Shown piece after piece: positions 1 through 12,704 of a stretch of 12,704 nt of DNA. Position numbers and translations under genes: made by a program. Origin of the DNA: an uncultured Pseudomonadales bacterium. Its GTDB lineage: Bacteria; Pseudomonadota; Gammaproteobacteria; Pseudomonadales; IMCC2047. Location of the stretch: positions 1 to 12,704 of the forward strand of contig CAMYKE010000024.1 in NCBI GenBank assembly GCA_947258895.1, read 5' to 3'. Below the pieces are notes generated by a model. That model was given only the letters and a program-made list of their open reading frames with translations, had not been told where the DNA came from and did not search any database. Numbering within the stretch: position 1 is the first letter of the stretch; each line of letters starts with the position of its first letter.

Positions 1-226
1 CTTCGATGTCCTGTTTGACTGCTGCCAGGTCCAGCTTCCTGAACTCATCCGCATAGCTAAAATCCTCACCCAACGGACTGGATTTTGGAGCATGCTGGTG
101 CAGGATATTGAGGTTAAGTTGGTTTGGCCACCAGTCTTTGTTGACGGTACCACCGCTCCCTGTTCGGGTATTGGCTCCATGCATTACCGGGCACCTGCCG
201 GTGTTGTTTGCCTGTTGCGTTGTCAT
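1..226 (-). CDS. katG: catalase-peroxidase KatG, N-terminal part (truncated by window edge)
   Basis: Translation from the ATG at 226 gives 75 residues open to the window edge. It begins [17 protein letters not shown] and continues through [17 protein letters not shown] and a [15 protein letters not shown] stretch. This is the characteristic N-terminus of bacterial KatG: a CPVMHG segment, then the WWPNQLNL motif and the (D/E)F-Y-EF-LDL motif. KatG is a haem enzyme of about 720-750 residues that removes hydrogen peroxide by catalase and peroxidase reactions. The catalytic Arg, Trp and His residues lie beyond the window. A GGAG ribosome-binding site stands 7 bases before the ATG. The gene has the same orientation as the guanidine operon but is 246 bases downstream of it, so it probably has its own promoter. 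I found no convincing OxyR site or sigma-70 promoter in that gap. Confidence 0.9.
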
Positions 227-344
227 CTGTCTACTCCGTTATTTTCATAATTACGATCTGTGGGTTAGCTGAGCTTTGATTGCCCTGCGGCCCTATCGTT
301 CAACACGCCGAAATTCGATCCCGGGACCACTAATTACTGTATCT

Positions 345-368
345 GGTTTAAGGGGAGGTTTAAGGGGA
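345..368. repeat. 12-bp perfect tandem duplication
   Basis: GGTTTAAGGGGA occurs twice head to tail, at 345-356 and 357-368. The second copy runs into the left arm of the adjacent inverted repeat. This could be a slippage product or part of the end of a small mobile element. Confidence 0.8.
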
Positions 369-454
369 CGGAGGGAATTAATGGTAGCCAGTTGTTACCG
401 GGATGGCGCGAAGTTTGTTGACGGTTGGTTAACAGATAATCCCTCCGTCCCCTT
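362..454. repeat. REP/MITE-like inverted repeat with 15-bp perfect arms
   Basis: The arm AAGGGGACGGAGGGA at 362-376 is exactly reverse-complemented at 440-454 (TCCCTCCGTCCCCTT), and both arms are followed inward by near-matching TAAT/ATTA bases. The spacer is 63 bases and contains a smaller GGTA...TACC inverted repeat. GGGGACGGAGGG-type palindromes recur in many gammaproteobacterial genomes as REP-like elements moved by Y1 (RAYT) transposases; that match is from memory and was not searched. On the plus strand a T-rich tail follows the right arm. On the minus strand the structure lies just past the allophanate hydrolase stop, so it could protect or end the operon's 3' end. Confidence 0.6.
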
Positions 455-472
455 TTTCTTTCCTTTTTCTTT

Positions 473-2230
473 TTAGGGCCTGAAATTACGCCAGCTGCCC
501 AGGCCGCTGATATCTTTCGCATCCTCAAGTCCACAGGGCTCGCAGATAAAGCTGTTCACCCAGCTGCCATCTGCCAGTTCGACGGATCCGATACCCAGTG
601 GGGGAGGGATCTGCAGCATGAATTCGCCAAAGCGTGCCACCGGTACTTGCCAGACTTCAACCTCGATCGCTTGGCCAGTTTCGGCACCTACGCGCGCCAG
701 GCCGGGGCGGTGCGGTGGACCGCCCGCTAGCGCATACAGACGGTAAGCCCGGGAGGTGGTCGTGGACTCGCTCAATGTGGCGCCCAGTGCCGTGAGCTGT
801 CCATTCAATGGCATCCCCGACAGGTGTGCTCCGCACACCGCGATCGGCATGCATTGCCCGGTTATTTCCGCGCTGGCCGCCGCCGGCTCGCCGCGAAACA
901 TCCTCGCATAGGCGAGTAATCGCCTGTCGGACAGCGCCGGCCCGGCGATCGTTACCCCGAAGGGCAGTCCCTCGTCTGTAAATCCCGCTGGCACCGCCAC
1001 GGCGGCAAGATCCAGCAAGTTCATAAAGTTAGTGTAATAACCCAGATTCGAATTGAGCGTTATGGGCTCCGCTAACACCTCGTCGACACGGTAAATCGTG
1101 CCTGCCGTGGGAGTGAACAGAAAGTCGACCTCCTGTAACGCCTCCGCACACTGGCGCTGCAACGCAGCGCGTCGATACTCGGCTTTAAACGCCTCCACAG
1201 CGGTATGGCTTGTCGCCGGCTCGATGATAGCCCTGATCGTCGGGTGCAGGGTATCGGGATCGGATAGCATCAGCTGTTCGATCGCCGCATAGCGCTCCGC
1301 CACCCAGGGACCTTCGTACAGCAAGCGGGCGCATTCCAGAAATGGCGCAAAATCGATGCGCTGCAGCGTACCGCCGCGGGCCTGCAGTTGCTCGATGGCC
1401 CGCTCAAACAGCTGCTGATAGCCGGCGTTGCCAAAGAAAGCCAGCTGCTCCTGCTGCGGAACCGCAAAGGTAAAGGCGTCCTCTGCCGGGCTGTCGTCCA
1501 TGGCTTCCGCCCTGGCGTAGCAATCGTCCCTGTCGTAGTCGGCGGTCAATTCCAGCAGGAGCTCGCTATCCGCTACCTCGTTGGCAAATAGGGTCACGCA
1601 ATCCAGGGTGCGGCATGCCGGGACCAGCCCCGAGGTGCTCAATAGCCCCTTGCTGGGTTTCACGCCAAACAGATTATTGAAGGCGGCGGGCACCCGGCCC
1701 GAGCCGGCGGTATCGGTACCCAGGGAAAAACTGACCAGGCCTTTGCCGACTGCGACCGCAGAACCCGAACTCGAGCCACCCGAGATGTAGTCCGGGTCAA
1801 TGCTGTTCCTGCACACGCCGAAAGGTTCCGGCGAGCGCACACCGACCAGTCCGGTGGCAAATTGATCCAGGTTGGTTTTGCCGATGGGAATCGCGCCTGC
1901 CTCCAGCAACAGGTTCACCACGTAGGCGGAACGATCGGGCAGGTAGCGGTATGCCGGACATCCCGCGGTGGTCGGCACGCCCGCCAGATCGAGATTGTCC
2001 TTGATGGCAAAGGGTATCCCGTAGAGCGGCAGATCATCGACTGATTTTCCGCGCAGCCGATCGAGCCAGGGCTGCAGCTCGGCCGGCGTCAGCCGGTGAG
2101 TCCAGATATTCCAGCTTTCACATGCATCCGCGCGGGCCCAAATTTGGCTAACCAGCTCCTCGGGCGTTAGCCGGGCGGAGGCATAGGCCTCCCGCAACAG
2201 GGAAATAGTAAGTTTCTCGGGGATATTCAT
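473..2230 (-). CDS. atzF: allophanate hydrolase
   Basis: 585-residue protein that hydrolyses allophanate (urea-1-carboxylate) to ammonia and CO2, the last step of guanidine or urea carboxylase pathways; cytosolic. The N-terminal amidase-signature domain (about 1-450) shows the Ser-cisSer-Lys triad: Lys77 in GIPFAIKDN, Ser153 in [10 protein letters not shown] and nucleophile Ser177 in [14 protein letters not shown]. The C-terminal allophanate hydrolase domain (about 461-585) starts [14 protein letters not shown] and contains [11 protein letters not shown], ending in a [11 protein letters not shown] motif. The length matches the family (about 570-620). The start is fixed by an ATGA overlap with the carboxylase stop, giving [12 protein letters not shown]; the frame is open 60 codons further upstream, but that part overlaps the biotinyl domain and has no homology. 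The symbol follows the AtzF/AH family; DUR1,2 carries the same domain in fungi. The gene looks intact. Confidence 0.93.
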
Positions 2231-3219
2231 TCGACCACCAGTACCATTAATCGTTGACCTGCCTGCACCTGCGCGCCTGCATTGACCGCAATGCTTGTTA
2301 CAACACCGGCTTCGGGAGCCTGTACTTCGATCTCCATTTTCATGGACTCCAGCACCAGCAGGGTCTCGCCGGCAATCACCCGCTGTCCTTCCGCGACCAG
2401 CACCTGCCACACGCTACCCGCCAGATGACCCTCGATGGCAATGCCGTTCTCCGGCAGGTCGGGCGCAGCCGAGAGCGTTTCCCTGTCGCTATACTCGGAT
2501 GCAAAGTTCAGCTGCCCGGATTCTACCCAGCGCTGCAATTCCTCGGCGAAGGCGGCTTCGCGATGCGCATCAAATTCCGCGATGCTCTCCGCCTGTTCGG
2601 AGAGAAATGCATGGTATTCTCGCAGATTGAAGCGCGAGGTTTCTGTACGCAGTCGATACTGTCCCTTGGGAAAATCCGCTCTGATTTGCAGCAGCTCTTC
2701 GGCGCTAACCTCGTAAAAGCGAATTTGATCAAAAAAACGCAGTAACCAGGGCTTGTCGAAATCTGCCGTGCGTCGATAACGGTTCCACATTTGTAAGGTA
2801 CGGCCGACAAACTGATACCCGCCCGGTCCCTCCATGCCATACACGCACAGATAGGAACCGCCGATCCCCACGGAATTCTCCGCGGTCCAGGTTCGCGCCG
2901 GGTTATATTTGGTCGTCACCAGCCGGTGCCGTGGGTCGAGGGGCGTGGCAACCGGCGCGCCCAGATACACGTCGCCCAGTCCCATCACCACATAGCTCGC
3001 GTTGAACACGATGTCCTTTACCTGCCGTACCGAATCCAGGCCATTGATGCGACGGATAAATTCAATGTTGTCGGGACACCAGGGCGCGTCTTTACGGACC
3101 GACTGCTGGTATTTTTCCACCGCCTCGCGGCAGGCCGCGTCATCCCAACTCAGCGGCAGATGCACAATCCGGGATTCAAGGTCCAGGTCTTCCAGGTGGG
3201 AAAGCGCCGCCTCCGCCAC
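2227..3219 (-). CDS. guanidine/urea carboxylase, C-terminal fragment (AHS1 part + biotinyl domain)
   Basis: 330-residue frame; the real remnant begins further upstream at about 3303 with [15 protein letters not shown], but the first usable start codon is GTG at 3219, with no convincing ribosome-binding site. The KipI-like AHS1 part shows [12 protein letters not shown], the [10 protein letters not shown] segment, [20 protein letters not shown] and [14 protein letters not shown], which are hallmarks of urea/guanidine carboxylase. A biotinyl (BCCP) domain fills the last 75 or so residues, with the biotin-accepting Lys294 in [10 protein letters not shown]. The stop overlaps the allophanate hydrolase start as ATGA, so translation of that gene would depend on ribosomes reaching this end. 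This fragment has lost the N-terminal piece of AHS1 and is separated from biotin carboxylase. Confidence 0.85.
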
Positions 3220-5720
3220 CTGCAGATGATCCAGCAGTTTGGAAACTGCCAGGCGCTGGCTGTCATAATGAATCTGCAGGGAGCGAATGCCCGGTGTGAG
3301 TTCCCGACGACCTCCGGATTCCCATCCACACCCTGTTGCCTATGCAGGACGGTGTTGTCAGGTGGCGAAATTTCCGCGGGGCAGGGCTTATGCGACAGAG
3401 ATGCCAGATTGCGATTTTGCTGGTTTTCAAGCCGCACCGCTGTAGCCAGGCTAACCGGTAGAAAATGCACCGTGTCGCCGGCTTTCAGTTGACCCAGTTT
3501 CCACAGATCCGCGGTGATCACCGTGGCGGGACAGACGAAGCCGCCGAGACTGGGGCCGTCCGGCCCGAGAATTACCGGCATGTCACCGGTGAAATCAACG
3601 CTGCCAATCGCATAGGCGTTGTCGTGGATATTGGAAGGGTGCATGCCCGCCTCACCGCCGTCGGTTCGCGCCCACTCGGGTTTCGGGCCGATCAGGCGGA
3701 CACCGGTGCGGCTGGAGTTATAATGGACTTCCCAGTTCGCCGCAAAAAACGTTTCTGCGTCCTGGGCAGTCAAAAATTCAGGCGCAGCGTGGGGGCCGTA
3801 AATCACCCGCAGCTGCCATTCGTTGCCAATCTCGGGTAGTAGCTCTGGCGGCAGTGCCTGGTAGCTGACGCTACCTGCGTCGCCTATCTGCAATACGTCA
3901 CCGGGCCGTAGTGCCCGGCCCTGGTGGCCGCCAAAGCGCCCAAGCGTGAAGGTCGACTTGCTGCCCAGGTAGTCGGGGCAGTAGATGCCGCCGGCTACCG
4001 CAAGGTAGGCGCGCGCGCCGGCACCTGGCGCTTTACCAATCCTCAGGCGATCGCCGCCGCGAACCTCGAACGGCTGGTAATAGTCGATGGCGCGTTCCGT
4101 GCCATCCTGCTGCACCACCAAGGCGGGCAAATTTGCTCCGCACAGTACCAGCTGGCACGAAACGTTAAACAGCAGTGTCGGTCCCGTCAGCGTGACTTCG
4201 ATGCCCGCGGCATGCTCTTCATTTCCCAGCAGTCGGTTTGCCAGGCGAAACGAATAGCTGTCGAAAGGGCCGGAAGGAGGCACTCCGACATCCCAAAAAC
4301 CGGTCCTCCCCGGCCAGTCCTGGACGGTGCTCATCGTGCCTGCCGTGATCACCTCGAGGGTTCGCGCCCGGTACGGCAGTTCGTTCAGGTAACGGGTATA
4401 CATTTCACCCTTGATGAACAGCGGGTCGTGCAAAACCTTGCGGACATAATCCAGGTTCGTCTGGATGCCGTATACTTCTGTCTCGTCCAGTACCTTGCCG
4501 AGCCGCGCGATCGCCCGCTCCCGGTTATCGTCGGTGACAATTATTTTCGCCAGCATGGGATCGAAGAAGGGAGAAACTTCCACGCCAGCCTCTATCCAGT
4601 GATCGATCCGGAGGTGGTCCGTGTCATCCGCCGGCCAATGCAAGTGGCTGATCAAACCGGCGCATGGCTGGAATGATTTGGCCGGATCCTCCGCGTACAG
4701 GCGCATCTGAATAGAGTGCCCCTTCGGTGTCAGCGTTCGCTGCAGGTCGGAGAGAGATGGCAACTCCAGCGCCCCCAGTAGCACCATCCAGCGCACCAGG
4801 TCGACGCCATAGACCTGCTCCGTCACGCCGTGCTCGACCTGTAGCCGAGTGTTGACCTCAAGAAAATAGAACTGCGCCGCGCTGGCGTCATAAATAAACT
4901 CGACGGTACCGGCATTGCGATAGTCGACGGCCTGGCACAATCGCACTGCGGTCTGGTGGAGTTCCTGCCTGACGAAGTGCGGCAGATTAGGGGCGGGGGC
5001 TTCCTCGACCACCTTTTGATTGCGGCGCTGGGTCGAACAATCGCGCTCGCCGAGGGCGATGACCTCGCCATTCCCGTCGCCGAATACCTGGACTTCAATA
5101 TGTCGCGCGCGTTCGATGAACTTTTCCAGGAAGACATCGGCGTTGCCAAAATTATTCTGGCTGAGTCGCTGCACCGAGGCAAAACCTGCAGTGAGCTCGT
5201 CATCGTTATAACAGAGCTCCATGCCGATGCCCCCGCCGCCAGCGGTACTTTTCAGCATTACCGGATAGCCGATTCGCTGCGCTTCCCGAAGTGCCTCGTC
5301 CAGGTTGCCCAATAGGCCGCTACCCGGTAGCAGGGGTACCTGGTTTTTACGGGCTATCTCGCGCGCGCTATGCTTCAAGCCAAAGGCGCGCATTTGTTCG
5401 GCGCGCGGGCCGAGAAACGCGATGCCCCGAGCCTCGCAGGCCTCGACAAACTCGGGGTTTTCGCTCAGGAAACCGTAGCCGGGGTGAATCGCCTGCACGT
5501 CGTGTAGCGCGCAAATCCGAAACAGCTTTTCCTGGTCCAGGTAGGTTTCGCGGGCCGGGCCTTCACCCAGGCAGATGGCCTGGTCGGCCCGGGAAACATG
5601 CAGGGAGTCGCGATCCGCGTCGGAATACACGACCACCGAGCCGATGCCCATCTCGCGCAGGGTTCGAATAATCCTGCAGGCAATGGCGCCACGGTTGGCA
5701 ATCAGTACTTTGCTAAACAT
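3150..5720 (-). CDS. guanidine/urea carboxylase, N-terminal fragment (biotin carboxylase + AHS2)
   Basis: 856 codons, of which about 805 are authentic. Biotin carboxylase spans roughly 1-450: N-terminal [31 protein letters not shown] at 79-89, ATP-grasp glycine-rich loop TAGGGGIGM at 159-167, HIEVQ at 208-212, and the catalytic [10 protein letters not shown] at 288-297 with Arg292. The KipA-like AHS2 domain follows (about 460-775), with [22 protein letters not shown] at its start and the [16 protein letters not shown] segment at 719-733. With ATP and bicarbonate this family carboxylates guanidine (formerly thought urea). From residue 806 the translation ([10 protein letters not shown]...) is out of frame and meaningless. 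The spacer before the ATG at 5720 has no good Shine-Dalgarno but is rich in stem-loops. The gene lies 77 bases after the upstream DUF1989 gene. Substrate preference for guanidine is inferred from the riboswitch and neighbours. Confidence 0.88.
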
Positions 5721-5727
5721 GTCAGCA

Positions 5728-5787
5728 CACTATCGATAGTGCGGGTCGTCCCGCCGAATAGAATTCCACCGAAAGTCGTCTTTCGGT
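5728..5787 (-). promoter_or_regulatory. tandem stem-loops in the spacer before the carboxylase start
   Basis: Read as RNA, the spacer contains ACCGAAAG-ACGA-CUUUCGGU (5787-5768, perfect 8-bp stem), then GCGGG-ACGA-CCCGC (5754-5741, perfect 5-bp stem), then the 14-bp palindrome CACTATCGATAGTG (5741-5728) ending 7 bases before the ATG. Both hairpins have the same ACGA tetraloop. No U-run follows either, so they do not look like intrinsic terminators. They could stabilise or process the mRNA, or control carboxylase translation, because the palindrome occupies the place where a ribosome-binding site would be expected. Confidence 0.5.
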
Positions 5788-5797
5788 TTATGTACAG

Positions 5798-6436
5798 CTA
5801 ATCCCAAATGATCATTTCTATGGGAGTCGGGTTATACGCATTACAGGGATTGTTCAGCTGCGGGCAGTTGGATACCAGTACGATCACGTCCATCGCAGCG
5901 CGCATCTCAACGTATTTACCGGCGTCACTGATTCCGTCCTCAAAAGTAAGGCCACCCTCCGGCGTAACCGGCACGTTCATAAAGAAATTGATGTTGTGGG
6001 TAATGTCGCGTTTGGTCATGCCGAACTGCTCGTTTTCGGCAACCGCCAGCAGCCAGCTATCCCGGCAGGCATGCATGCATTTCTTCTCCAGGGCATAGCG
6101 CACGGTATTACTTTCCGTGGCACAGGCTCCGCCCAATGTATCGTGCCGGCCACAGGTATCGGCCGTGATTTCCAGCATCAGGTTGCCCGCGTTGGACAGC
6201 AACCGGGTGCCGGCGGTCAGGTACACGTTGCCCTGCTCACGAATGGTGTCAATCGCACTGTAGCGTTCGCCCGGGTCGGCCAGGCTGTAAAACAGCGTAT
6301 CCGCCGCCTGATTGCCCTCCAGATCCAGAATGCGCAGGGTTTGACCGGCTGTTAGCGGATGCATCCAGTACTCTCCGGCGGGCACCACTTCGCGATAACT
6401 CGCCTGCTCTGTCTTCAGGGTACTTTCTTTAATCAT
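5798..6436 (-). CDS. DUF1989 protein (urea carboxylase-associated protein 1), CgdAB carboxyguanidine deiminase subunit
   Basis: 212 residues. It belongs to the DUF1989 family once called urea carboxylase-associated protein 1. Together with the second DUF1989 protein encoded just upstream it forms carboxyguanidine deiminase (CgdAB), which converts carboxyguanidine to allophanate and ammonia; I am not certain which subunit is named A and which B. Family marks are [10 protein letters not shown] near 43-52, [11 protein letters not shown] at 95-105, [10 protein letters not shown] near 148-157 and [17 protein letters not shown] at 189-205. Cys95, His98, Cys105, Cys191 and Cys198 are candidate metal ligands. 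The length is normal for the family. The ATG at 6436 follows a GGGAG that is very close (2 bases), and the gene begins 18 bases after its partner's stop, which suggests coupled synthesis of the two subunits. Confidence 0.9.
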
Positions 6437-6454
6437 CGCTCCCGACTCACTCCG

Positions 6455-7183
6455 TTACCGGCCGCCACACCCCAGTTGGTAAATATGGTTGTTCATGAAC
6501 CCACGTTCGTTTTCCGGCCGGGATATCCTGCACGGGTCGTCAGGCGCTACCGGATCAGCCATATGGATCTCATAAGCGACCGGTTTTTTGGGATAACTGG
6601 ATGCCGGATTCAGCGGATGCGGGCAGGTGTGCAGTAACACCAGCGTATCCATTTCAAAGCGCAGCTCGATGGCATCGCCGGGCTTTGAGTTTTCTTTGAC
6701 AAAGTTGAGATTACCGGCAGCGTCCGTCTGTACCTTGCTGAACAGGTTGAGATTGGCCGCAAGATCTTTCCTGCCCAGGCCATATTTTGCGGCCTCGACC
6801 AGAAAACTGTCATGCCCGCTGAGCGTCCAGTCATTGCGGTACTCCTGGTAGGAATGTTTCCCCCACCGGGCCTCTACCATCTTGCGGGTCATCGAACCGC
6901 ACACGGTGTCGTGCCAGCCCACATCATCCGCAATAATGGAACAGAAAATGCGTCCCATATCCGAATACAGGCAATGGCCCCGGGTCAGCTTAAAGGTATG
7001 CTGGCATTTCAGGGTGTCGGGGGCGTTGTAACGTTCCAGCAGGTTTTTCGGATTGTAGAACAGCATGCCGACGTTAGCGCCACCTTGCTGGTCAACCACC
7101 CGAATTGTGGTGCCTCGCTGCATGGTCAGGGACCAGTGCGCGCCGCCCGGGAGTTGATCGCTGTAGAGTGGAGAACGGCTCAT
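6455..7183 (-). CDS. DUF1989 protein (urea carboxylase-associated protein 2), CgdAB carboxyguanidine deiminase subunit
   Basis: 242 residues; paralogue of the next gene in the operon, in the family formerly called urea carboxylase-associated protein 2. Shared marks are a GANVGMLFYN segment (35-44), GWHDTVCGSMT (89-99) in place of the partner's [10 protein letters not shown], an NLNLF motif (144-148), and LHTCPHPLNP (184-193). His91, Cys95, Cys187 and His189 are possible metal or catalytic residues. The two paralogues form the deiminase acting between the carboxylase and allophanate hydrolase. A GAGG ribosome-binding site precedes the ATG by 5 bases, and the gene starts 14 bases after the ATPase stop. 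Nothing suggests truncation. Family assignment is firm; the carboxyguanidine role comes from published work on the family together with the riboswitch here. Confidence 0.9.
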   Translation of the reverse strand: MSRSPLYSDQLPGGAHWSLTMQRGTTIRVVDQQGGANVGMLFYNPKNLLERYNAPDTLKCQHTFKLTRGHCLYSDMGRIFCSIIADDVGWHDTVCGSMTRKMVEARWGKHSYQEYRNDWTLSGHDSFLVEAAKYGLGRKDLAANLNLFSKVQTDAAGNLNFVKENSKPGDAIELRFEMDTLVLLHTCPHPLNPASSYPKKPVAYEIHMADPVAPDDPCRISRPENERGFMNNHIYQLGCGGR

Positions 7184-7197
7184 AATATCCTCGGTGT

Positions 7198-8028
7198 CTA
7201 TACGGCTTCCAGGTTTGGACTTTCGGTATCTGTGGCAGGTGTTTCGTCGGGTCCGTGCGGGTTCGAATTATCGATAGCTTCGTCAATTTGTTGCAGGGTC
7301 GACTCGTCACAGGTACCAACGGGAATGTCATAGGTGATCTTGGCGCCGTAACTGTCCGGGTCGTGCGGATCATCGCGCACCTTGTCGAATACCCACAGTC
7401 GCGTGCCCAGGTAAAACCCTTCCTTCAGGTCATGGGTAATCATGAAGATGGTAATGCCGGTCTTGCGCCAGAGCTCCTTGATTAGCTGGTGCATATCCGC
7501 CCGGATACCGGGATCCAGAGCGCCAAAGGGCTCGTCCAGCAACAGTATCTTGGGATGGTTGATCAGTGATTGTGCGATCGCCAGCCGCTGCTGCATGCCC
7601 CCGGACAATTCCGCCGGAAACTTGTCCAGGGCGGCGCTCAACCCCACCGATTTCAGTATCTCCTCGGCTTCCTGCCGTGCCTTGCGCCGGGCTGTTCCAA
7701 ATAGCCGTCCGGTAATGGGCGCTGCCGGTAATTCCTGCGCAATCATCACATTCTCCAGCGTCGTCAGATGGGGAAACACCGAATATTTTTGAAACACGAT
7801 ACCGCGCTCGGGATCGGGTTCGTCCTTCAGCGGCTTTCCGGATAATAGCATCGCACCTCGCGAGGGCGTTTCGATACCCAGCAACATCTTTAAAAAGGTG
7901 GTTTTGCCGCAACCCGAGGTGCCGACGATCGTGATGAATTCACCTTCTTCGACTCGGACATTGACGTTTTCCAGTACGATATTGTTGCCGTATTCCTTCC
8001 ACAGCCCCTTGGCTTCTATGAAACTCAT
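7198..8028 (-). CDS. ABC transporter ATP-binding protein, NitT/TauT type (guanidine uptake)
   Basis: 276 residues. Nucleotide-binding domain with Walker A GTSGCGKTT (36-44), Q-loop Gln80 in IVFQKYSVFPHLTT, signature LSGGMQQR (141-148), Walker B ILLLDEP with Glu166, D-loop GALDP, and switch His199 in ITHD. A Pro/Asp-rich C-terminal tail (about 215-276) follows the core, as in the 'urea carboxylase-related' ATPases. It powers import through the neighbouring permease on the inner face of the cytoplasmic membrane. The start is set by an ATGA overlap with the permease stop, giving MSFIEAKGLWKEYG; the 34 extra open codons upstream overlap permease sequence and are spurious. The substrate is inferred to be guanidine from the riboswitch and the downstream enzymes. 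Confidence 0.93.
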   Translation of the reverse strand: MSFIEAKGLWKEYGNNIVLENVNVRVEEGEFITIVGTSGCGKTTFLKMLLGIETPSRGAMLLSGKPLKDEPDPERGIVFQKYSVFPHLTTLENVMIAQELPAAPITGRLFGTARRKARQEAEEILKSVGLSAALDKFPAELSGGMQQRLAIAQSLINHPKILLLDEPFGALDPGIRADMHQLIKELWRKTGITIFMITHDLKEGFYLGTRLWVFDKVRDDPHDPDSYGAKITYDIPVGTCDESTLQQIDEAIDNSNPHGPDETPATDTESPNLEAV

Positions 8029-8858
8029 GCGGCGCTCCCGTCCTTGCTCAGGCCGTGGAACCAGGGGAACGCCCTGATCGACAGCTGCCGCAACAGGTAG
8101 TCCATCAGGAACGCGAGCAGGGTGATCCACGCCACGTACGGCAGGATGACGTCCATCGACAGGTAGCGCCTTACCAGGAAAATCCGGTATCCCAGGCCGT
8201 CGGTGGCGGCGATCGCTTCCGCCGCGATAAGAAACAGCCAGCTCGCGCCGAGAGACAGGCGCACCGCATCCAGCAACCGGGGCAGCACCTGGGGCAGGAC
8301 GACCCGCAGTATTACTTGCCAGGTGGAGGCCCCCAGGGTCTGCGCCTTGATGAGTTGCTCGTCGGGAATTTCCAGCACCTTGGCCTGCATCTCCCGCACG
8401 ATAAAGGGTGCCGTTCCAAACACGATAAGCACAACTTTGGATAACTCGCCCAAACCAAACACGATAAACAGGATGGGTAATACTGCCATCGGCGGAATCA
8501 GGGAGATGGCGGTGACGAAGGGCGACAGGTTGGCACGCACGTAGGGGATAACCCCATTCGCAATACCTATGGTCAAGCCGATCAGCGCGCTGATACCGAT
8601 GCCCCAGGACAGCCTGATCAGGCTCGACAGGGTATCTGCCCAGAGTAAATAGCTTCCGGTCCGCTTGCTGGGCTCAAAGGCCATGCGCTGTATCGCATCA
8701 CCAAAACTGCTTAACGACGGCAACAGCTTGTCATTGGGATTCTCGGTCAGCCGGATATCCGAGGCGATGGCATAGGCAGCCACGGCGATCAGAAATGGCA
8801 ACAGGGTGAGGAAGACGGCGGCCACTCTACTCGGCTGTCGGTTCATCAGGCGTTTCAT
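8025..8858 (-). CDS. ABC transporter permease, NitT/TauT type (guanidine uptake)
   Basis: 277-residue inner-membrane protein of the BPD_transp_1 family. Hydrophobic segments are at about 13-31, 86-105, 114-136, 140-153, 203-219 and 238-256. The ATPase-coupling EAA loop is around 168-190, with the core KAQTLGASTWQVILRVVLP. The ENPNDKLLPS stretch (39-48) is typical of permeases next to urea/guanidine carboxylases. I chose the ATG at 8858 (MKRLMNRQPSR), which matches the family N-terminus; a TTG at 8912 would add 18 non-conserved residues. The next gene overlaps by ATGA. There is no strong ribosome-binding site before the ATG, so initiation may depend on translation of a short upstream frame that ends on it. 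Confidence 0.9.
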   Translation of the reverse strand: MKRLMNRQPSRVAAVFLTLLPFLIAVAAYAIASDIRLTENPNDKLLPSLSSFGDAIQRMAFEPSKRTGSYLLWADTLSSLIRLSWGIGISALIGLTIGIANGVIPYVRANLSPFVTAISLIPPMAVLPILFIVFGLGELSKVVLIVFGTAPFIVREMQAKVLEIPDEQLIKAQTLGASTWQVILRVVLPQVLPRLLDAVRLSLGASWLFLIAAEAIAATDGLGYRIFLVRRYLSMDVILPYVAWITLLAFLMDYLLRQLSIRAFPWFHGLSKDGSAA

Positions 8859-8917
8859 AGGGGCTTGCCTGCGCTGAGAGTATCCGCCAGCACGAAGCCG
8901 ACGGTTGTCCAATGCAT
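8855..8917 (-). CDS. possible 20-codon leader ORF coupled to the permease
   Basis: Four bases after the substrate-binding protein stop, an ATG opens a 20-codon frame (MHWTTVGFVLADTLSAGKPL) whose TGA overlaps the permease ATG as ATGA. It fills the otherwise empty gap exactly and could carry ribosomes from one cistron to the next by termination-reinitiation. It has no ribosome-binding site and no known family; it may be chance. Confidence 0.25.
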   Translation of the reverse strand: MHWTTVGFVLADTLSAGKPL

Positions 8918-8921
8918 AACG

Positions 8922-10004
8922 TTACAGCGCGCCGTCTGCGGCCATTTTCATAAAGGTCGGGTCAAAGCGCAGCTTGATATTTCCCTTGTCGCCGACGACT
9001 CCGGAGGGGGTTTCGATGCCGATAAATCCGGCGTCTGCCGCGCCTTCACCCAGCAGCCCGTGGTCGAAGGAAAAATTGGCGACATTCATCATAGTGGTTT
9101 TCAATGCGCCGCTATTGACGAACTCAACCGCATCCGCGGCATCGAAAAACATCTCGGTAGAGGCCAGTTGGGCATCGTAACCTTCCAGATCCGTGCCGGA
9201 CGCATCGGCCATGTAACTGCGGGCGCTCAAGCCCATTTCATCATTTTGTGACATGGTCGCCATGATTTCATACCAGGCTCCGGTCAGCGCTTTGCCCAGT
9301 TTCGGATTGGCTTGCAGGGTTTCGGTATTGACCACCATCATATCGATGATTTCGCCGGGAATTTTGCTGGAATCAAACACCTTGTTGCTAGCGGGCATGG
9401 CCAGAATTTCAAATACCAGGGGATTCCAGGTGGTAACCGCGGTTACGTCCTTCGTGGAATAGGCCGCCACCATATCGGCGTCCGAGGTGTTTACCACCGT
9501 AACATCCTTCTCGGACATTCCCACGCTTTCGAGTGCCCGTGCCAGCAGGTAGTGAGACACACTCAGTTCCACCAGGTTGACGTTTTGGGCTTTAATGTCC
9601 TTCAGGCTGTTCTTGTTTTTTAGGATGACGGCATCGTTGCCGTTGGAAAAATCACCTACGATCAGCGCCGTGGAATCCACGCCGCTGGCAGACGGAATGG
9701 TCAGCGCATCCATGTTGGTCATCACGCAGCCATCGAATGCCCCTGCGGTAAACTGGTTGATCGACTCGATGTAGTCGTTGATCTGTACCACTTCGATTTC
9801 AATACCGTATTTATCGGCCCATTTTTTTACGATTCCCGAATTGTCGCCGTAACCCCAGGGCATCCAGCCAACGTAGATGGACCAGGCGACCCGGAACTTG
9901 TCCTTGGCAAATACGGTAGCGGGAGCGGTAAGGCCAAACAGCAGCAATATAGCGATAAGCGAGGACGAGAAAGATCGGAACAGGGAAGAGGGTTGCTTTT
10001 TCAT
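8922..10004 (-). CDS. ABC transporter periplasmic substrate-binding protein (guanidine; formerly 'urea ABC transporter')
   Basis: 360 residues. The signal peptide is residues 1-33: MKKQPSS, a hydrophobic core (ILLLFGLTAP), and a likely cleavage after the Ala of TVFA before KDKF. The mature part is a NitT/TauT-type periplasmic binding protein, with WSIYVGWMPWGYGDNSG (41-57) and the INDYIESINQFTAGAFDG segment (75-92) characteristic of binding proteins next to urea/guanidine carboxylases. It would capture the substrate and deliver it to the permease and ATPase encoded next. This is the first gene after the guanidine-I riboswitch. The ATG at 10004 has an AGGAG site with 6 bases of spacing. The SBP family is clear; guanidine as ligand is inferred from context and is not read from binding-site residues. 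Confidence 0.92.
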   Translation of the reverse strand: MKKQPSSLFRSFSSSLIAILLLFGLTAPATVFAKDKFRVAWSIYVGWMPWGYGDNSGIVKKWADKYGIEIEVVQINDYIESINQFTAGAFDGCVMTNMDALTIPSASGVDSTALIVGDFSNGNDAVILKNKNSLKDIKAQNVNLVELSVSHYLLARALESVGMSEKDVTVVNTSDADMVAAYSTKDVTAVTTWNPLVFEILAMPASNKVFDSSKIPGEIIDMMVVNTETLQANPKLGKALTGAWYEIMATMSQNDEMGLSARSYMADASGTDLEGYDAQLASTEMFFDAADAVEFVNSGALKTTMMNVANFSFDHGLLGEGAADAGFIGIETPSGVVGDKGNIKLRFDPTFMKMAADGAL

Positions 10005-10010
10005 GGATCA

Positions 10011-10015
10011 CTCCT
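10011..10015 (-). promoter_or_regulatory. ribosome-binding site of the substrate-binding protein gene
   Basis: AGGAG lies 6 bases before the ATG at 10004 and is the likely end point of riboswitch control. A CCGGCCGC segment (10031-10024) sits just upstream of it. Confidence 0.7.
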
Positions 10016-10062
10016 GGGTATGGGCGGCCGGTTTTTTTTAAGCGCAAAGGAAATCAGTTGCA

Positions 10063-10168
10063 GATCTCCCGGGCTTTTATCCCTCCGTGTAACCTCCATA
10101 CGCAAGAGGTCGAAGACTCTCGGACCAGACACCGCTCTCAGGGTAAGCGGCCGGAACCCTAGTCTTCT
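10063..10168 (-). ncRNA. guanidine-I (ykkC) riboswitch
   Basis: Read on the minus strand this carries all the hallmark blocks of the class in order: ACTAGGGTTCCGG, then CTGGTCCGAGAG, then ACACGGAGGGATAAAAGCCC followed by GGGAGA. Helices are visible: GAAGACT (10167-10161) pairs with AGTCTTC (10118-10112) as P1; CCGCT pairs with AGCGG (about 10150-10132); ACCTC pairs with GAGGT (10110-10092). The class binds free guanidinium and turns on guanidine export or degradation genes. It lies about 60 bases ahead of the substrate-binding protein start, so it should govern the whole import and carboxylase operon. No intrinsic terminator lies between aptamer and gene, so control is more likely translational, although I could not identify the switching helix with confidence. 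Confidence 0.95.
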
Positions 10169-10236
10169 GTTTTTACAACAGCATCCAAATACAGTCGGTC
10201 ACCGCATTTGATTTCGTTCGCAGTCACTCGAGAGAC

Positions 10237-10252
10237 TGCATGAAGCATGCCA
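10237..10252 (-). promoter_or_regulatory. candidate sigma-54 promoter of the guanidine operon
   Basis: TGGCATGCTTCATGCA on the minus strand matches the sigma-54 consensus TGGCACG-N4-TTGCA at 9 of the 11 conserved positions as I count them, with the invariant GG and GC exactly 10 bases apart. The predicted transcription start is near 10226, leaving about 58 bases of leader before the riboswitch. No convincing sigma-70 promoter was seen in the same gap. Confidence 0.5.
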
Positions 10253-10500
10253 CATATTTGGAAGATATCCTGATTAATGTACCAGCGTGTGGTCGGCGTG
10301 ATGCGGCGTCCCGGGCTTTGAGCGCAGGGGGAGCCATCTCTCCATGTAAATCAGTGCGTTATCAACTGTCGCGTCGCGGAGCACCCTGCAAGGACCAATG
10401 ACCCGGAGCCATATCGTGCTGTTGCGACTATTCGAAGGGTTTGAATTTGTCAGGCAGATGTTGATTTCGAAAGCACTACGATTGAGCGCCGCCCAATTAA

Positions 10501-10517
10501 TGCACCAATATGTATCC
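10501..10517. promoter_or_regulatory. weak NtrC-type site (one good half-site)
   Basis: TGCACCAATATGTATCC: the left half is a full TGCACCA NtrC half-site, the right half is poor. Its centre is 23 bases from the centre of the perfect neighbouring site, about two helical turns. This arrangement would suit a strong/weak pair of activator dimers. Confidence 0.35.
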
Positions 10518-10524
10518 TTATAGC

Positions 10525-10539
10525 GCACCATAGTGGTGC
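10525..10539. promoter_or_regulatory. NtrC-type binding site (perfect palindrome)
   Basis: GCACCA-TAG-TGGTGC is a perfect inverted repeat with the 3-base spacer of the NtrC consensus TGCACCA-N3-TGGTGCA. It lies about 306 bases upstream of the predicted sigma-54 start, a workable enhancer distance. Control by nitrogen limitation would suit an operon that releases ammonia from guanidine. Confidence 0.5.
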
Positions 10540-10653
10540 CATAGAGCGGGCTGGCGGTTGCGCGGACCGCGCACCCTTTAGCGTCAGGCTCCGTAAATTT
10601 TTGGTGTAAAGGGACGGAATACCAGGTGAATCGTCTCTGCAACGTCCTGCCAG

Positions 10654-11043
10654 TCAGATTATATTCTGGCTGCTGCCGCTGCGGTTGTGATCCGGCGCAC
10701 TGAGATGGGCATCGATGAGCTTCATATTGCGCTCGTTGGCCTTGAATGCAAAATCGAATACATCGCCAAGAATCGGGATCGCGCCAACAAAAAGCTCCAG
10801 AATTACGTTAACCGACATGCGGGCCAAAACAACGCCGGGCACGCCCAGGCGCACTGCCTGGCCGACGATGTACGTGGACAAGCCCGCTGCCAGCAGGTCG
10901 CCAACACCGGGAACCAGCCCGATAATGCCATCCAGCCCGATGCGGAAACCACCCGGCAATCGAATCGAGCTGTCCAGTAACCACGCCAGACGACGTAACC
11001 GCGACGCTTCGTCATCGCTCGCAGCCGGGGGCTTATCCGTCAC
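10654..11043 (-). CDS. DUF4112 family small membrane-associated protein
   Basis: 129 residues. The DUF4112 core runs from LLDSSIRLPGGFRIGLDGIIG (22-42) through two similar hydrophobic motifs, LVPGVGDLLAAG (43-54) and AIPILGDVFDFA (88-99), to KANERNMKLI (101-110). Both repeats carry a P-x-x-GD core after a hydrophobic stretch, suggesting membrane insertion or a hairpin. Function is unknown. The start is a GTG at 11043: the in-frame TAG 13 codons upstream (the stop of the preceding gene) excludes a longer form. No clear ribosome-binding site is seen. It lies 36 bases after the Pmp3-like gene and is probably co-transcribed with it. The stop codon lies in the loop of a short GCCAG...CTGGC inverted repeat that lacks a T-run. 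Confidence 0.85.
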   Translation of the reverse strand: MTDKPPAASDDEASRLRRLAWLLDSSIRLPGGFRIGLDGIIGLVPGVGDLLAAGLSTYIVGQAVRLGVPGVVLARMSVNVILELFVGAIPILGDVFDFAFKANERNMKLIDAHLSAPDHNRSGSSQNII

Positions 11044-11079
11044 TGTAATGAGTTTCGGTCCGCGCCAGTCATGCGCGGA

Positions 11080-11238
11080 CTACTTCTTCGCGATTATCCA
11101 GACTGCATGCACGATACCCGGAATGTAACCCAGGATAGTCAGAAGGATATTCAACCAGAAATGCATGCCAATACCGACCTGCAGGAACACCCCGACCGGT
11201 GGTAAAAGGATGGCGAAAATAATGCGTACGATATCCAT
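11080..11238 (-). CDS. Pmp3/YqaE family membrane peptide
   Basis: 52 residues starting MDIVRIIFAILLPPVGVFLQVG and containing HFWLNILLTILGYIPGIVHAVWII. This is the complete Pmp3/YqaE (UPF0057) fold: two transmembrane segments (about 4-22 and 28-49) with the conserved LPPVGVF and ILGYIPGIVHA motifs. Eukaryotic Pmp3 and plant RCI2 affect membrane potential and salt or cold tolerance; bacterial homologues such as YqaE are stress-induced. I chose the ATG at 11238 because AAGGAAAG precedes it at good spacing and the family has this length; the open frame upstream to 11379 has no homology. It sits between cti and the DUF4112 gene. Confidence 0.93.
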   Translation of the reverse strand: MDIVRIIFAILLPPVGVFLQVGIGMHFWLNILLTILGYIPGIVHAVWIIAKK

Positions 11239-11388
11239 AGTTACTTTCCTTCCAGAATAAAGGTGACGTGGAGCAGCGCGGGAATTTGCTGCCGGGAATT
11301 GCGTGGCCAATAACCTCAAGCCAGTTTGGCGCCCAACGCTTGTTTTCATTGGCAGGGTCGCCGGCGACGCAGGTGTCATACTACCACA

Positions 11389-12704
11389 TCAACGATTCTC
11401 GAGACGGTTAAAATCCAGGAGTCCGGCCTGAACAGGGTGCTGTCGCTGCCCCCAGGCATGCAGCCAGTCTGCATAGGCCCAAAAATATTCGGAATTGCGG
11501 CGTACTCCGTAGCGGTCTTTTAGTTTGTGATAATCCGCTTCCGATTCCAGGTCACCCACTGCGGAAATAAAATCCGGGAGTTGTTGCTCGGTGACACGCA
11601 AAAAACTATTGGGGTAGCTGCCGACAATGCCCGGTATTACGGATAAGGTCTGTTCCCGTGGCAGCAACCTTGCGCGTTCCCGCAGTAAGGATGAAACATT
11701 CGTGTGGGCCCGGTTGGGAAGTAGCGTGTAGGGGTGGCTACTGCCTGCGGCATCGACCACCTGCACCAGCGTGATTTCCGGAAGCCAGTCCAGGTGCATC
11801 CCCTCGCTCGTCTCCAGTGCGCTCAGGTGATGGCGCCCCCGCGGTCGCTGCGCGATGTCCGCGCCCAGTGCCGAGATTAATTTATCGAATAATTCGGATT
11901 TGTGATCGTTGCTCTGGTAATTCAGCAGGTTTCGATCCAGGGGTGCCTTTTGCAGGACTTTCAGGTAGTCCGTGACTTCATCCTCGGCGCCGCGATACCA
12001 GCTGAGAAACTCCTTTTCTGCGCTCTGCAACGGCAGTAACAGCAGGAAGTTGCTTTCGCCTTCCATGCGCAAAAAGTCCATGTACAGGCGAGTATTGAGC
12101 TGGTGTCCCAGATTTCCATACACGTCAAAACCGGCAACCAGCAGATAGTGGATACGTTCCAGCAGGCTGTAGGTGATCACCCATGCCGTTTCCGGCTTGG
12201 GGCCGTGCAGGCCGGTTACTACCGTGGCGGAATCAAAGTGCCTGAAGATCGTCAACGCCGCGTTCGGGTTGTGGCCATCGCCATCCCAGATCGCATCGAG
12301 CGACACCTCCTTTCCCTCGGGGTAGTGGGTGCGGATAAACTCGACCTTGTCGTCCAGGTGCTTGCGCTGCTTGTCGGCGTAGTTGGTCCATATTTCGATC
12401 GGCAGCGCATTGCTCTGGTCTGCCGCGGGCAGTACCAGGTGCTCGATGTTATCCTCGCGTGCGCTGGACGCGTAGAGCATCTGCTCCATATCCGGATCGA
12501 GAAAGAATACCCAGAACTGGTCCTCAATCGCGTTAAGGGCGATCTGACCACGACAGACCGGTCCCTTGATGTAGCCCATGATAGTGTACTGTGCCTCATC
12601 CAGCATGAAGCTGTAGCGCGACTTCGCCGGCAAGTGCTTGAAGGTCAGGAAGGGATTTGCAGCCTTGACCGGCGTGTAGTCCGGCAGGCCTGGTACGCTG
12701 TACT
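11389..12704 (-). CDS. cti: fatty acid cis/trans isomerase, C-terminal part (5' end outside window)
   Basis: About 437 residues are visible, with the frame open to the window edge; the full enzyme is about 750-800 residues. Family motifs include AKSRYSFMLDEAQYTIMGYIKGPVCRGQIALN near the edge, DQFWVFFLDPD, TYSLLERIHYLLVAGFDVYGNLGHQL, RLYMDFLRMEGESNFLLLLP and the terminal GLLDFNRLENR. Cti is a periplasmic cytochrome-c-type enzyme that turns cis unsaturated membrane lipids into trans forms, stiffening the membrane under solvent or heat stress. The haem-binding CxxCH and the signal peptide belong to the missing N-terminal half. A TTG inside the frame (12633) is not the start, since homology continues before it. 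The 150 bases after the stop hold a GTCGCCGGCGAC palindrome (11357-11368) but no T-run, and no other gene. Confidence 0.93.
   Translation of the reverse strand, partial: YSVPGLPDYTPVKAANPFLTFKHLPAKSRYSFMLDEAQYTIMGYIKGPVCRGQIALNAIEDQFWVFFLDPDMEQMLYASSAREDNIEHLVLPAADQSNALPIEIWTNYADKQRKHLDDKVEFIRTHYPEGKEVSLDAIWDGDGHNPNAALTIFRHFDSATVVTGLHGPKPETAWVITYSLLERIHYLLVAGFDVYGNLGHQLNTRLYMDFLRMEGESNFLLLLPLQSAEKEFLSWYRGAEDEVTDYLKVLQKAPLDRNLLNYQSNDHKSELFDKLISALGADIAQRPRGRHHLSALETSEGMHLDWLPEITLVQVVDAAGSSHPYTLLPNRAHTNVSSLLRERARLLPREQTLSVIPGIVGSYPNSFLRVTEQQLPDFISAVGDLESEADYHKLKDRYGVRRNSEYFWAYADWLHAWGQRQHPVQAGLLDFNRLENR

Follow-up and report, generated by a model that had tools for sequence, protein, structure and literature searches.

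A broken guanidine carboxylase gene in an otherwise ordinary guanidine assimilation operon of an uncultured Pseudomonadales bacterium

The guanidine assimilation operon and its carboxylase gene

The stretch of DNA analyzed here, referred to as the window, comprises 12,704 nt from an uncultured Pseudomonadales bacterium (assembly GCA_947258895.1, contig CAMYKE010000024.1, forward-strand positions 1–12,704). It contains the parts of a guanidine assimilation operon: the riboswitches, the importer, the two deiminase subunits, and the hydrolase are all there, and the carboxylase is present but broken. The following features were assigned in addition to the carboxylase gene.

473..2230, minus strand: allophanate hydrolase, unbroken; its start overlaps the carboxylase stop (ATGA) (TIGR02713, 758.2 bits, cut-off 511.05)
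5741..5787, minus strand: guanidine-II riboswitch in the carboxylase leader (Rfam RF01068, 36.9 bits, cut-off 32)
5798..6436, minus strand: carboxyguanidine deiminase subunit (UAAP2 family), unbroken (TIGR03424, 335.7 bits, cut-off 284.7)
6455..7183, minus strand: carboxyguanidine deiminase subunit (UAAP1 family), unbroken (TIGR03425, 334.3 bits, cut-off 205.95)
7198..8028, minus strand: ABC transporter ATPase; its ATG at 8028 overlaps the permease stop (ATGA) (PF00005; translation)
8025..8912, minus strand: ABC transporter permease (limits of the open reading frame; start not fixed) (PF00528)
8922..10004, minus strand: ABC transporter substrate-binding protein (TIGR03427, 557 bits, cut-off 333.9)
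10064..10173, minus strand: guanidine-I riboswitch upstream of the operon (Rfam RF00442, 94.8 bits, cut-off 63)

An earlier, sequence-only reading of this DNA had described the ATGA couplings of the operon as intact. This holds for the carboxylase stop and the allophanate hydrolase start (2230–2227) and for the permease stop and the ATPase start (8028–8025), but not for every junction: the deiminase genes are uncoupled, with 18 nt between the UAAP1 stop at 6455 and the UAAP2 start at 6436. The carboxylase gene has its own leader with the guanidine-II riboswitch. For comparison, the best 80 of at least 589 confirmed genome-contig stretches were taken as relatives, and their proteins were aligned with that of the window. 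In 54 of the 74 relatives whose leader is long enough, a simple two-hairpin motif precedes the carboxylase by no more than 380 bases (in 53 cases near the start), and a guanidine-II riboswitch above the Rfam cut-off was found in eight of 11 relatives' loci examined. The available text of PMC12186494 describes a guanidine-I riboswitch before importer and deiminase genes and a guanidine-II riboswitch before carboxylase and hydrolase genes in Raoultella, Erwinia, and Klebsiella. As this layout is published there and guanidine-II riboswitches are common before the relatives' carboxylases, dual riboswitch control is ordinary.

The family assignment of the carboxylase was examined at its signature residues by comparison with the Kluyveromyces lactis enzyme. 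D709 of the N-terminal part, counted on an alignment to 5i8i, aligns with K. lactis N1330; in the C-terminal part, a GLGD motif aligns with GLGD1584, and a TTK motif with GTK1605, so that both the Asp and the Lys are present. According to the accessible portion of PMC11410670, the Asp at the K. lactis 1584 position is required, and an Asp at position 1330 sets guanidine carboxylases apart from urea carboxylases, which have Asn; the same Asp/Asn difference is given in the available part of PMC12186494. K1605 is the likely general base of CT in the text available from PMC5770610. Judged by these residues, the gene is assigned to the guanidine, not the urea, carboxylase family, and the two signature aspartates bear out the label that it had been given from sequence inspection.

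Outside the operon genes, an exact tandem 12-mer was observed at 345–368, just downstream of the allophanate hydrolase, and an imperfect 29-nt inverted repeat (79% complementary, arms 35 nt apart) at 362–390/426–454. The repeats at 345–454 are possibly terminator-like or a small repeat element. The region 10654–12702, upstream of the operon, encodes a DUF4112 protein and a small membrane protein resembling Pmp3, as well as a fatty acid cis/trans isomerase whose gene is truncated at the window edge; no tie of these genes to guanidine was seen.

The junction and the missing segment

The carboxylase gene is located on the minus strand and falls into two parts, which are listed here with the region between them.

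3306..5720, minus strand: guanidine carboxylase N part, biotin carboxylase (BC) and CT subdomains A/B, 805 residues (TIGR02712 positions 1–793; Pfam Biotin_carb_N, CPSase_L_D2, Biotin_carb_C, CT_A_B; Asp at the K. lactis 1330 position)
3303..3306, minus strand: deletion junction, consisting of the last base of the V codon, a residual GG, and the E of ELTPG; approximately 124 nt gone (42–48 residues here in the 80 relatives)
3150..3305, minus strand: out-of-frame tail of the N open reading frame, 51 residues, overlapping the C part in the wrong frame (list of open reading frames, frame scan)
2227..3303, minus strand: guanidine carboxylase C part, CT_C_D without its first ~43 positions and a biotinyl domain with ESMKME (TIGR02712 positions 846–1200; PF02682 from position 44; PF00364; Asp and Lys at the K. 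lactis 1584 and 1605 positions)

The N frame starts with ATG at 5720 and encodes 805 family residues ending in VDGNPEVV, the final family codon being GTC (V) at 3308–3306. Past the junction, it continues for 51 meaningless residues to a TGA stop at 3152–3150. The C frame is open from 3339, enters family sequence with ELTPGIRS (GAA CTC ACA CCG) at 3303, and ends with TGA at 2229–2227. Only two bases, GG at 3305–3304, lie between the V codon and the E of ELTPG. The frameshifted break, which had been placed at 3301–3312 by inspection of the sequence, is therewith confirmed at 3303–3306. The urea carboxylase family profile TIGR02712 matched with positions 1–793 in the N piece (1217.5 bits) and with positions 846–1200 in the C piece (520.3 bits); the pieces are in different frames, and neither alone reached the cut-off of 1303.85. 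Two long family matches in different frames imply that the frame split is not due to chance. In agreement, GC content by minus-strand codon position shifted its phase at the junction, from 0.67/0.43/0.71 before to 0.41/0.66/0.67 after it (phase of 5720). The family matches and the frame scan also agree with the earlier description of both flanks as clean coding sequence, with the 5′ frame reaching residue ~805 (GNPEVV). A single open frame with BC, complete CT, and BCCP is not present in the window carboxylase.

The spacing from the V of VVYR to the E of ELTPG amounted to 42 residues (126 nt) in 77 of the 80 relatives and to 47–48 residues in the other three. Of the 42-residue cases, 76 were counted by motif and one, L064, which the motif missed, by hand; the L055 row in this count lacked the left anchor and had an outlying length of 81. 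The segment is present in all 80 relatives, and a single open frame runs across it in 79 (including L018, L025, L045, and L052, which begin inside the gene), L055 being the exception. Relative to the common length, the window has lost a net 126 − 2 = 124 nt (3 × 41 + 1). The C piece enters PF02682 (CT_C_D, AHS1/KipI-like) at position 44, and the first 43 positions are absent; thus, the missing piece corresponds to the first ~43 positions of this domain. The sequence-only reading had predicted that a linker of about 40–45 residues is missing where the AHS1/KipI-like domain begins and that 3n+1 bases were lost; measured against the relatives' carboxylases, size, position, and frame offset all turned out as predicted. 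The two bases left between the two family matches also speak against a segment that was replaced or moved (insertion, inversion, or an intein-like arrangement), a reading for which no supporting point was found and which we consider close to inconceivable.

The missing segment is well conserved among the 80 sequences: of its 42 columns, seven are invariant, 14 are conserved to at least 95%, and 18 to at least 90%, following the pattern YR.aGd..lLvEYG...LDi.LRFRaHALM.wL......g.. An AlphaFold model of the domain from the closest relative, L001, for which 38 of the 80 relatives were used, placed a strand at residues 3–8, a strand at 12–17, and a helix at 24–39 of the missing piece (block pLDDT 69–91), which together form the first half of a strand-strand-helix-strand-strand-helix unit. 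In the truncated domain of the window, the next two strands were no longer modelled, and the mean pLDDT was 48 versus 56 for the intact L001 domain, low in both. This comparison lends weak support to predicted structural damage to CT-C/D. The best Foldseek matches of the model were K. lactis urea amidolyase and urea carboxylase, followed by KipI-like proteins, with rmsd values of 7 to 15 Å.

Origin and age of the lesion

The deviation of the carboxylase from near-invariant positions was determined with 75 of the 80 relatives (L018, L025, L045, L052, and L055 were left out as not full length) and, in the N part, for residues 1–780 only. At columns with at least 98% agreement, the window deviated at 4 of 385, three of them among the 258 columns of the N part and one among the 127 of the C part. 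The mean was 4.3 (sd 2.3) in 20 intact control relatives, none of which is more than 75% identical to its nearest neighbour. At strictly invariant columns, it deviated at 4 of 312, which is slightly above the control mean of 2.35 and within the spread (sd 1.7). In the frame scan, both carboxylase parts were free of additional stops and frame breaks. A pseudogene in decay was therefore rejected, there being neither a further lesion nor relaxed constraint beyond the break. Since the deviations outside the missing segment are on a par with those of intact relatives, the lesion is either very young or artefactual, and these conserved flanks bear out the same verdict of the sequence-only reading. 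A rough calculation that allows at most ~5 excess changes over ~385 codons, each counted with ~2.3 non-synonymous sites, puts the neutral divergence accumulated after the break below ~0.6%.

We consider it probable that the window carries a real, recent null allele of the guanidine carboxylase gene, with ~124 bp deleted in the DNA of the cell. Such a deletion would remove ~42 residues from the beginning of CT subdomain C/D and shift the frame. The nearly fixed length of the segment and its loss in none of the 80 relatives were counted for a real deletion; relatives sharing the shortened region in an unbroken frame, the case that had been named as speaking against a break, were likewise found at none of the 80 fetched loci. 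The neighbouring genes checked gave family matches unbroken to the profile ends or nearly so, except for the one truncated at the window edge. When the ends of the deletion were compared by eye with the DNA of L001, taken in place of the ancestral sequence, they shared at most ~1 base. Because microhomology is short or lacking in this comparison, illegitimate end joining would fit as the origin, rather than recombination between repeats.

The absence of further decay is equally predicted by an assembly or read artefact, and this explanation, although not the one we favour, carries appreciable weight. The organism would then possess an intact gene, and an erroneous join or a chimeric read, in a contig of perhaps thin coverage, would have cost the sequence ~124 bases. 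Both window proteins derive from one 13,452-base contig, with one member sequence each and no replicate, and both fragments are about as conserved as those of intact relatives. Moreover, L055, a relative's MAG contig with a title coverage of 1.66, contains 10 N with duplicated flanks at 560–1120 in the same stretch of the gene; this break reads as a faulty scaffold join and shows how assembly can break here. Against an artefact, no collapsible repeat was seen at the junction by eye in the comparison with L001 DNA, so that assembly collapse by repeats is unsupported there; a 124-base loss is no homopolymer error, and no other broken gene was found among those checked in the window.

L001, a Porticoccaceae MAG and the closest of the 80 relatives, showed 67% identity in the N part, 71–72% in the C part, and 89% in UAAP2. 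A near-identical intact relative was not found in the protein searches: besides the window's own protein, the best match to the N open reading frame was 66% identical (120 matches listed; 8000 candidates scored), and that to the C open reading frame 71% (120 listed of 4892 matches; 7999 candidates). Three of 72,556 plasmid records matched, each over at most 14% of the query at 73–80% identity. No match in viral contigs was obtained with a 22-base pattern from immediately 5′ of the junction.

Consequences and comparison with known systems

If the deletion is real, transfer to guanidine should fail, as CT-C/D lacks its first strands. The N chain, comprising biotin carboxylase, CT-A/B, and a 51-residue junk tail, would have neither a complete CT nor a biotin carrier attached to it and would not be expected to carboxylate guanidine. 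Assimilation through this pathway would thus be blocked at its first step, with import, deiminase, and allophanate hydrolase still encoded.

It is very improbable that the two parts form a working split enzyme, in which a chain of BC and CT-A/B and a chain of CT-C/D and BCCP are joined in trans or by −1 frameshifting. KipI/KipA-like proteins, with E. coli YbgJK (5dud) among the matches, do have the C/D and A/B parts on separate chains. In PxpB/PxpC (KipI/KipA-like), each of these parts is a whole domain, whereas the break in the window takes 42 conserved residues and is not a cut at a domain border. Two GTG codons that precede the stop of the N frame, at 3219 and at 3165, make re-initiation conceivable, but no start has an evident ribosome site; at best, the biotinyl part may be made from one of these codons or from a later start. 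Programmed −1 frameshifting was rejected because the overlap 3339–3150 contains no slippery heptamer of the type X XXY YYZ. None of the 120 C-fragment matches listed exceeds 71% identity except the window's own, so that no second case of the split was seen. Still more improbable is a split guanidine carboxylase produced by the cell in which the shortened CT-C/D chain and the N chain work together, the activity perhaps being altered.

A real deletion would mean that the strain was sampled very soon after the first step of guanidine assimilation had been lost, with import and the later steps kept. It would then represent a natural null mutant that takes up guanidine yet does not use it through this pathway. 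Null alleles of recent origin are common, and the lesion is no new kind of enzyme. It is an ordinary event in a known gene of a known operon, whether a frameshifting deletion or an assembly error that mimics one, and it adds little to the biology of the gene family. In the protein collection, the locus is kept as two proteins, P0001 (856 aa) and P0121 (312 aa), and a test should precede any annotation of either one as a working enzyme.

The window carboxylase has the domain order BC, CT-A/B, CT-C/D, and BCCP of guanidine carboxylase, a member of the TIGR02712 urea carboxylase family with K. lactis urea carboxylase (3va7/5i8i) as a structural relative, and it shares with guanidine carboxylase the signature Asp at the K. 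lactis 1330 and 1584 positions and the Lys at the 1605 position. It differs from guanidine carboxylase in its broken frame and in the loss of ~42 residues at the start of CT-C/D. The layout of the operon is the same as that of the Raoultella, Erwinia, and Klebsiella operons in the available text of PMC12186494, from which it differs by the broken carboxylase.

The two-chain proteins PxpB/PxpC resemble the window in carrying CT-C/D and CT-A/B on separate chains. Their domains are whole, whereas CT-C/D in the window is devoid of its N-terminal part.
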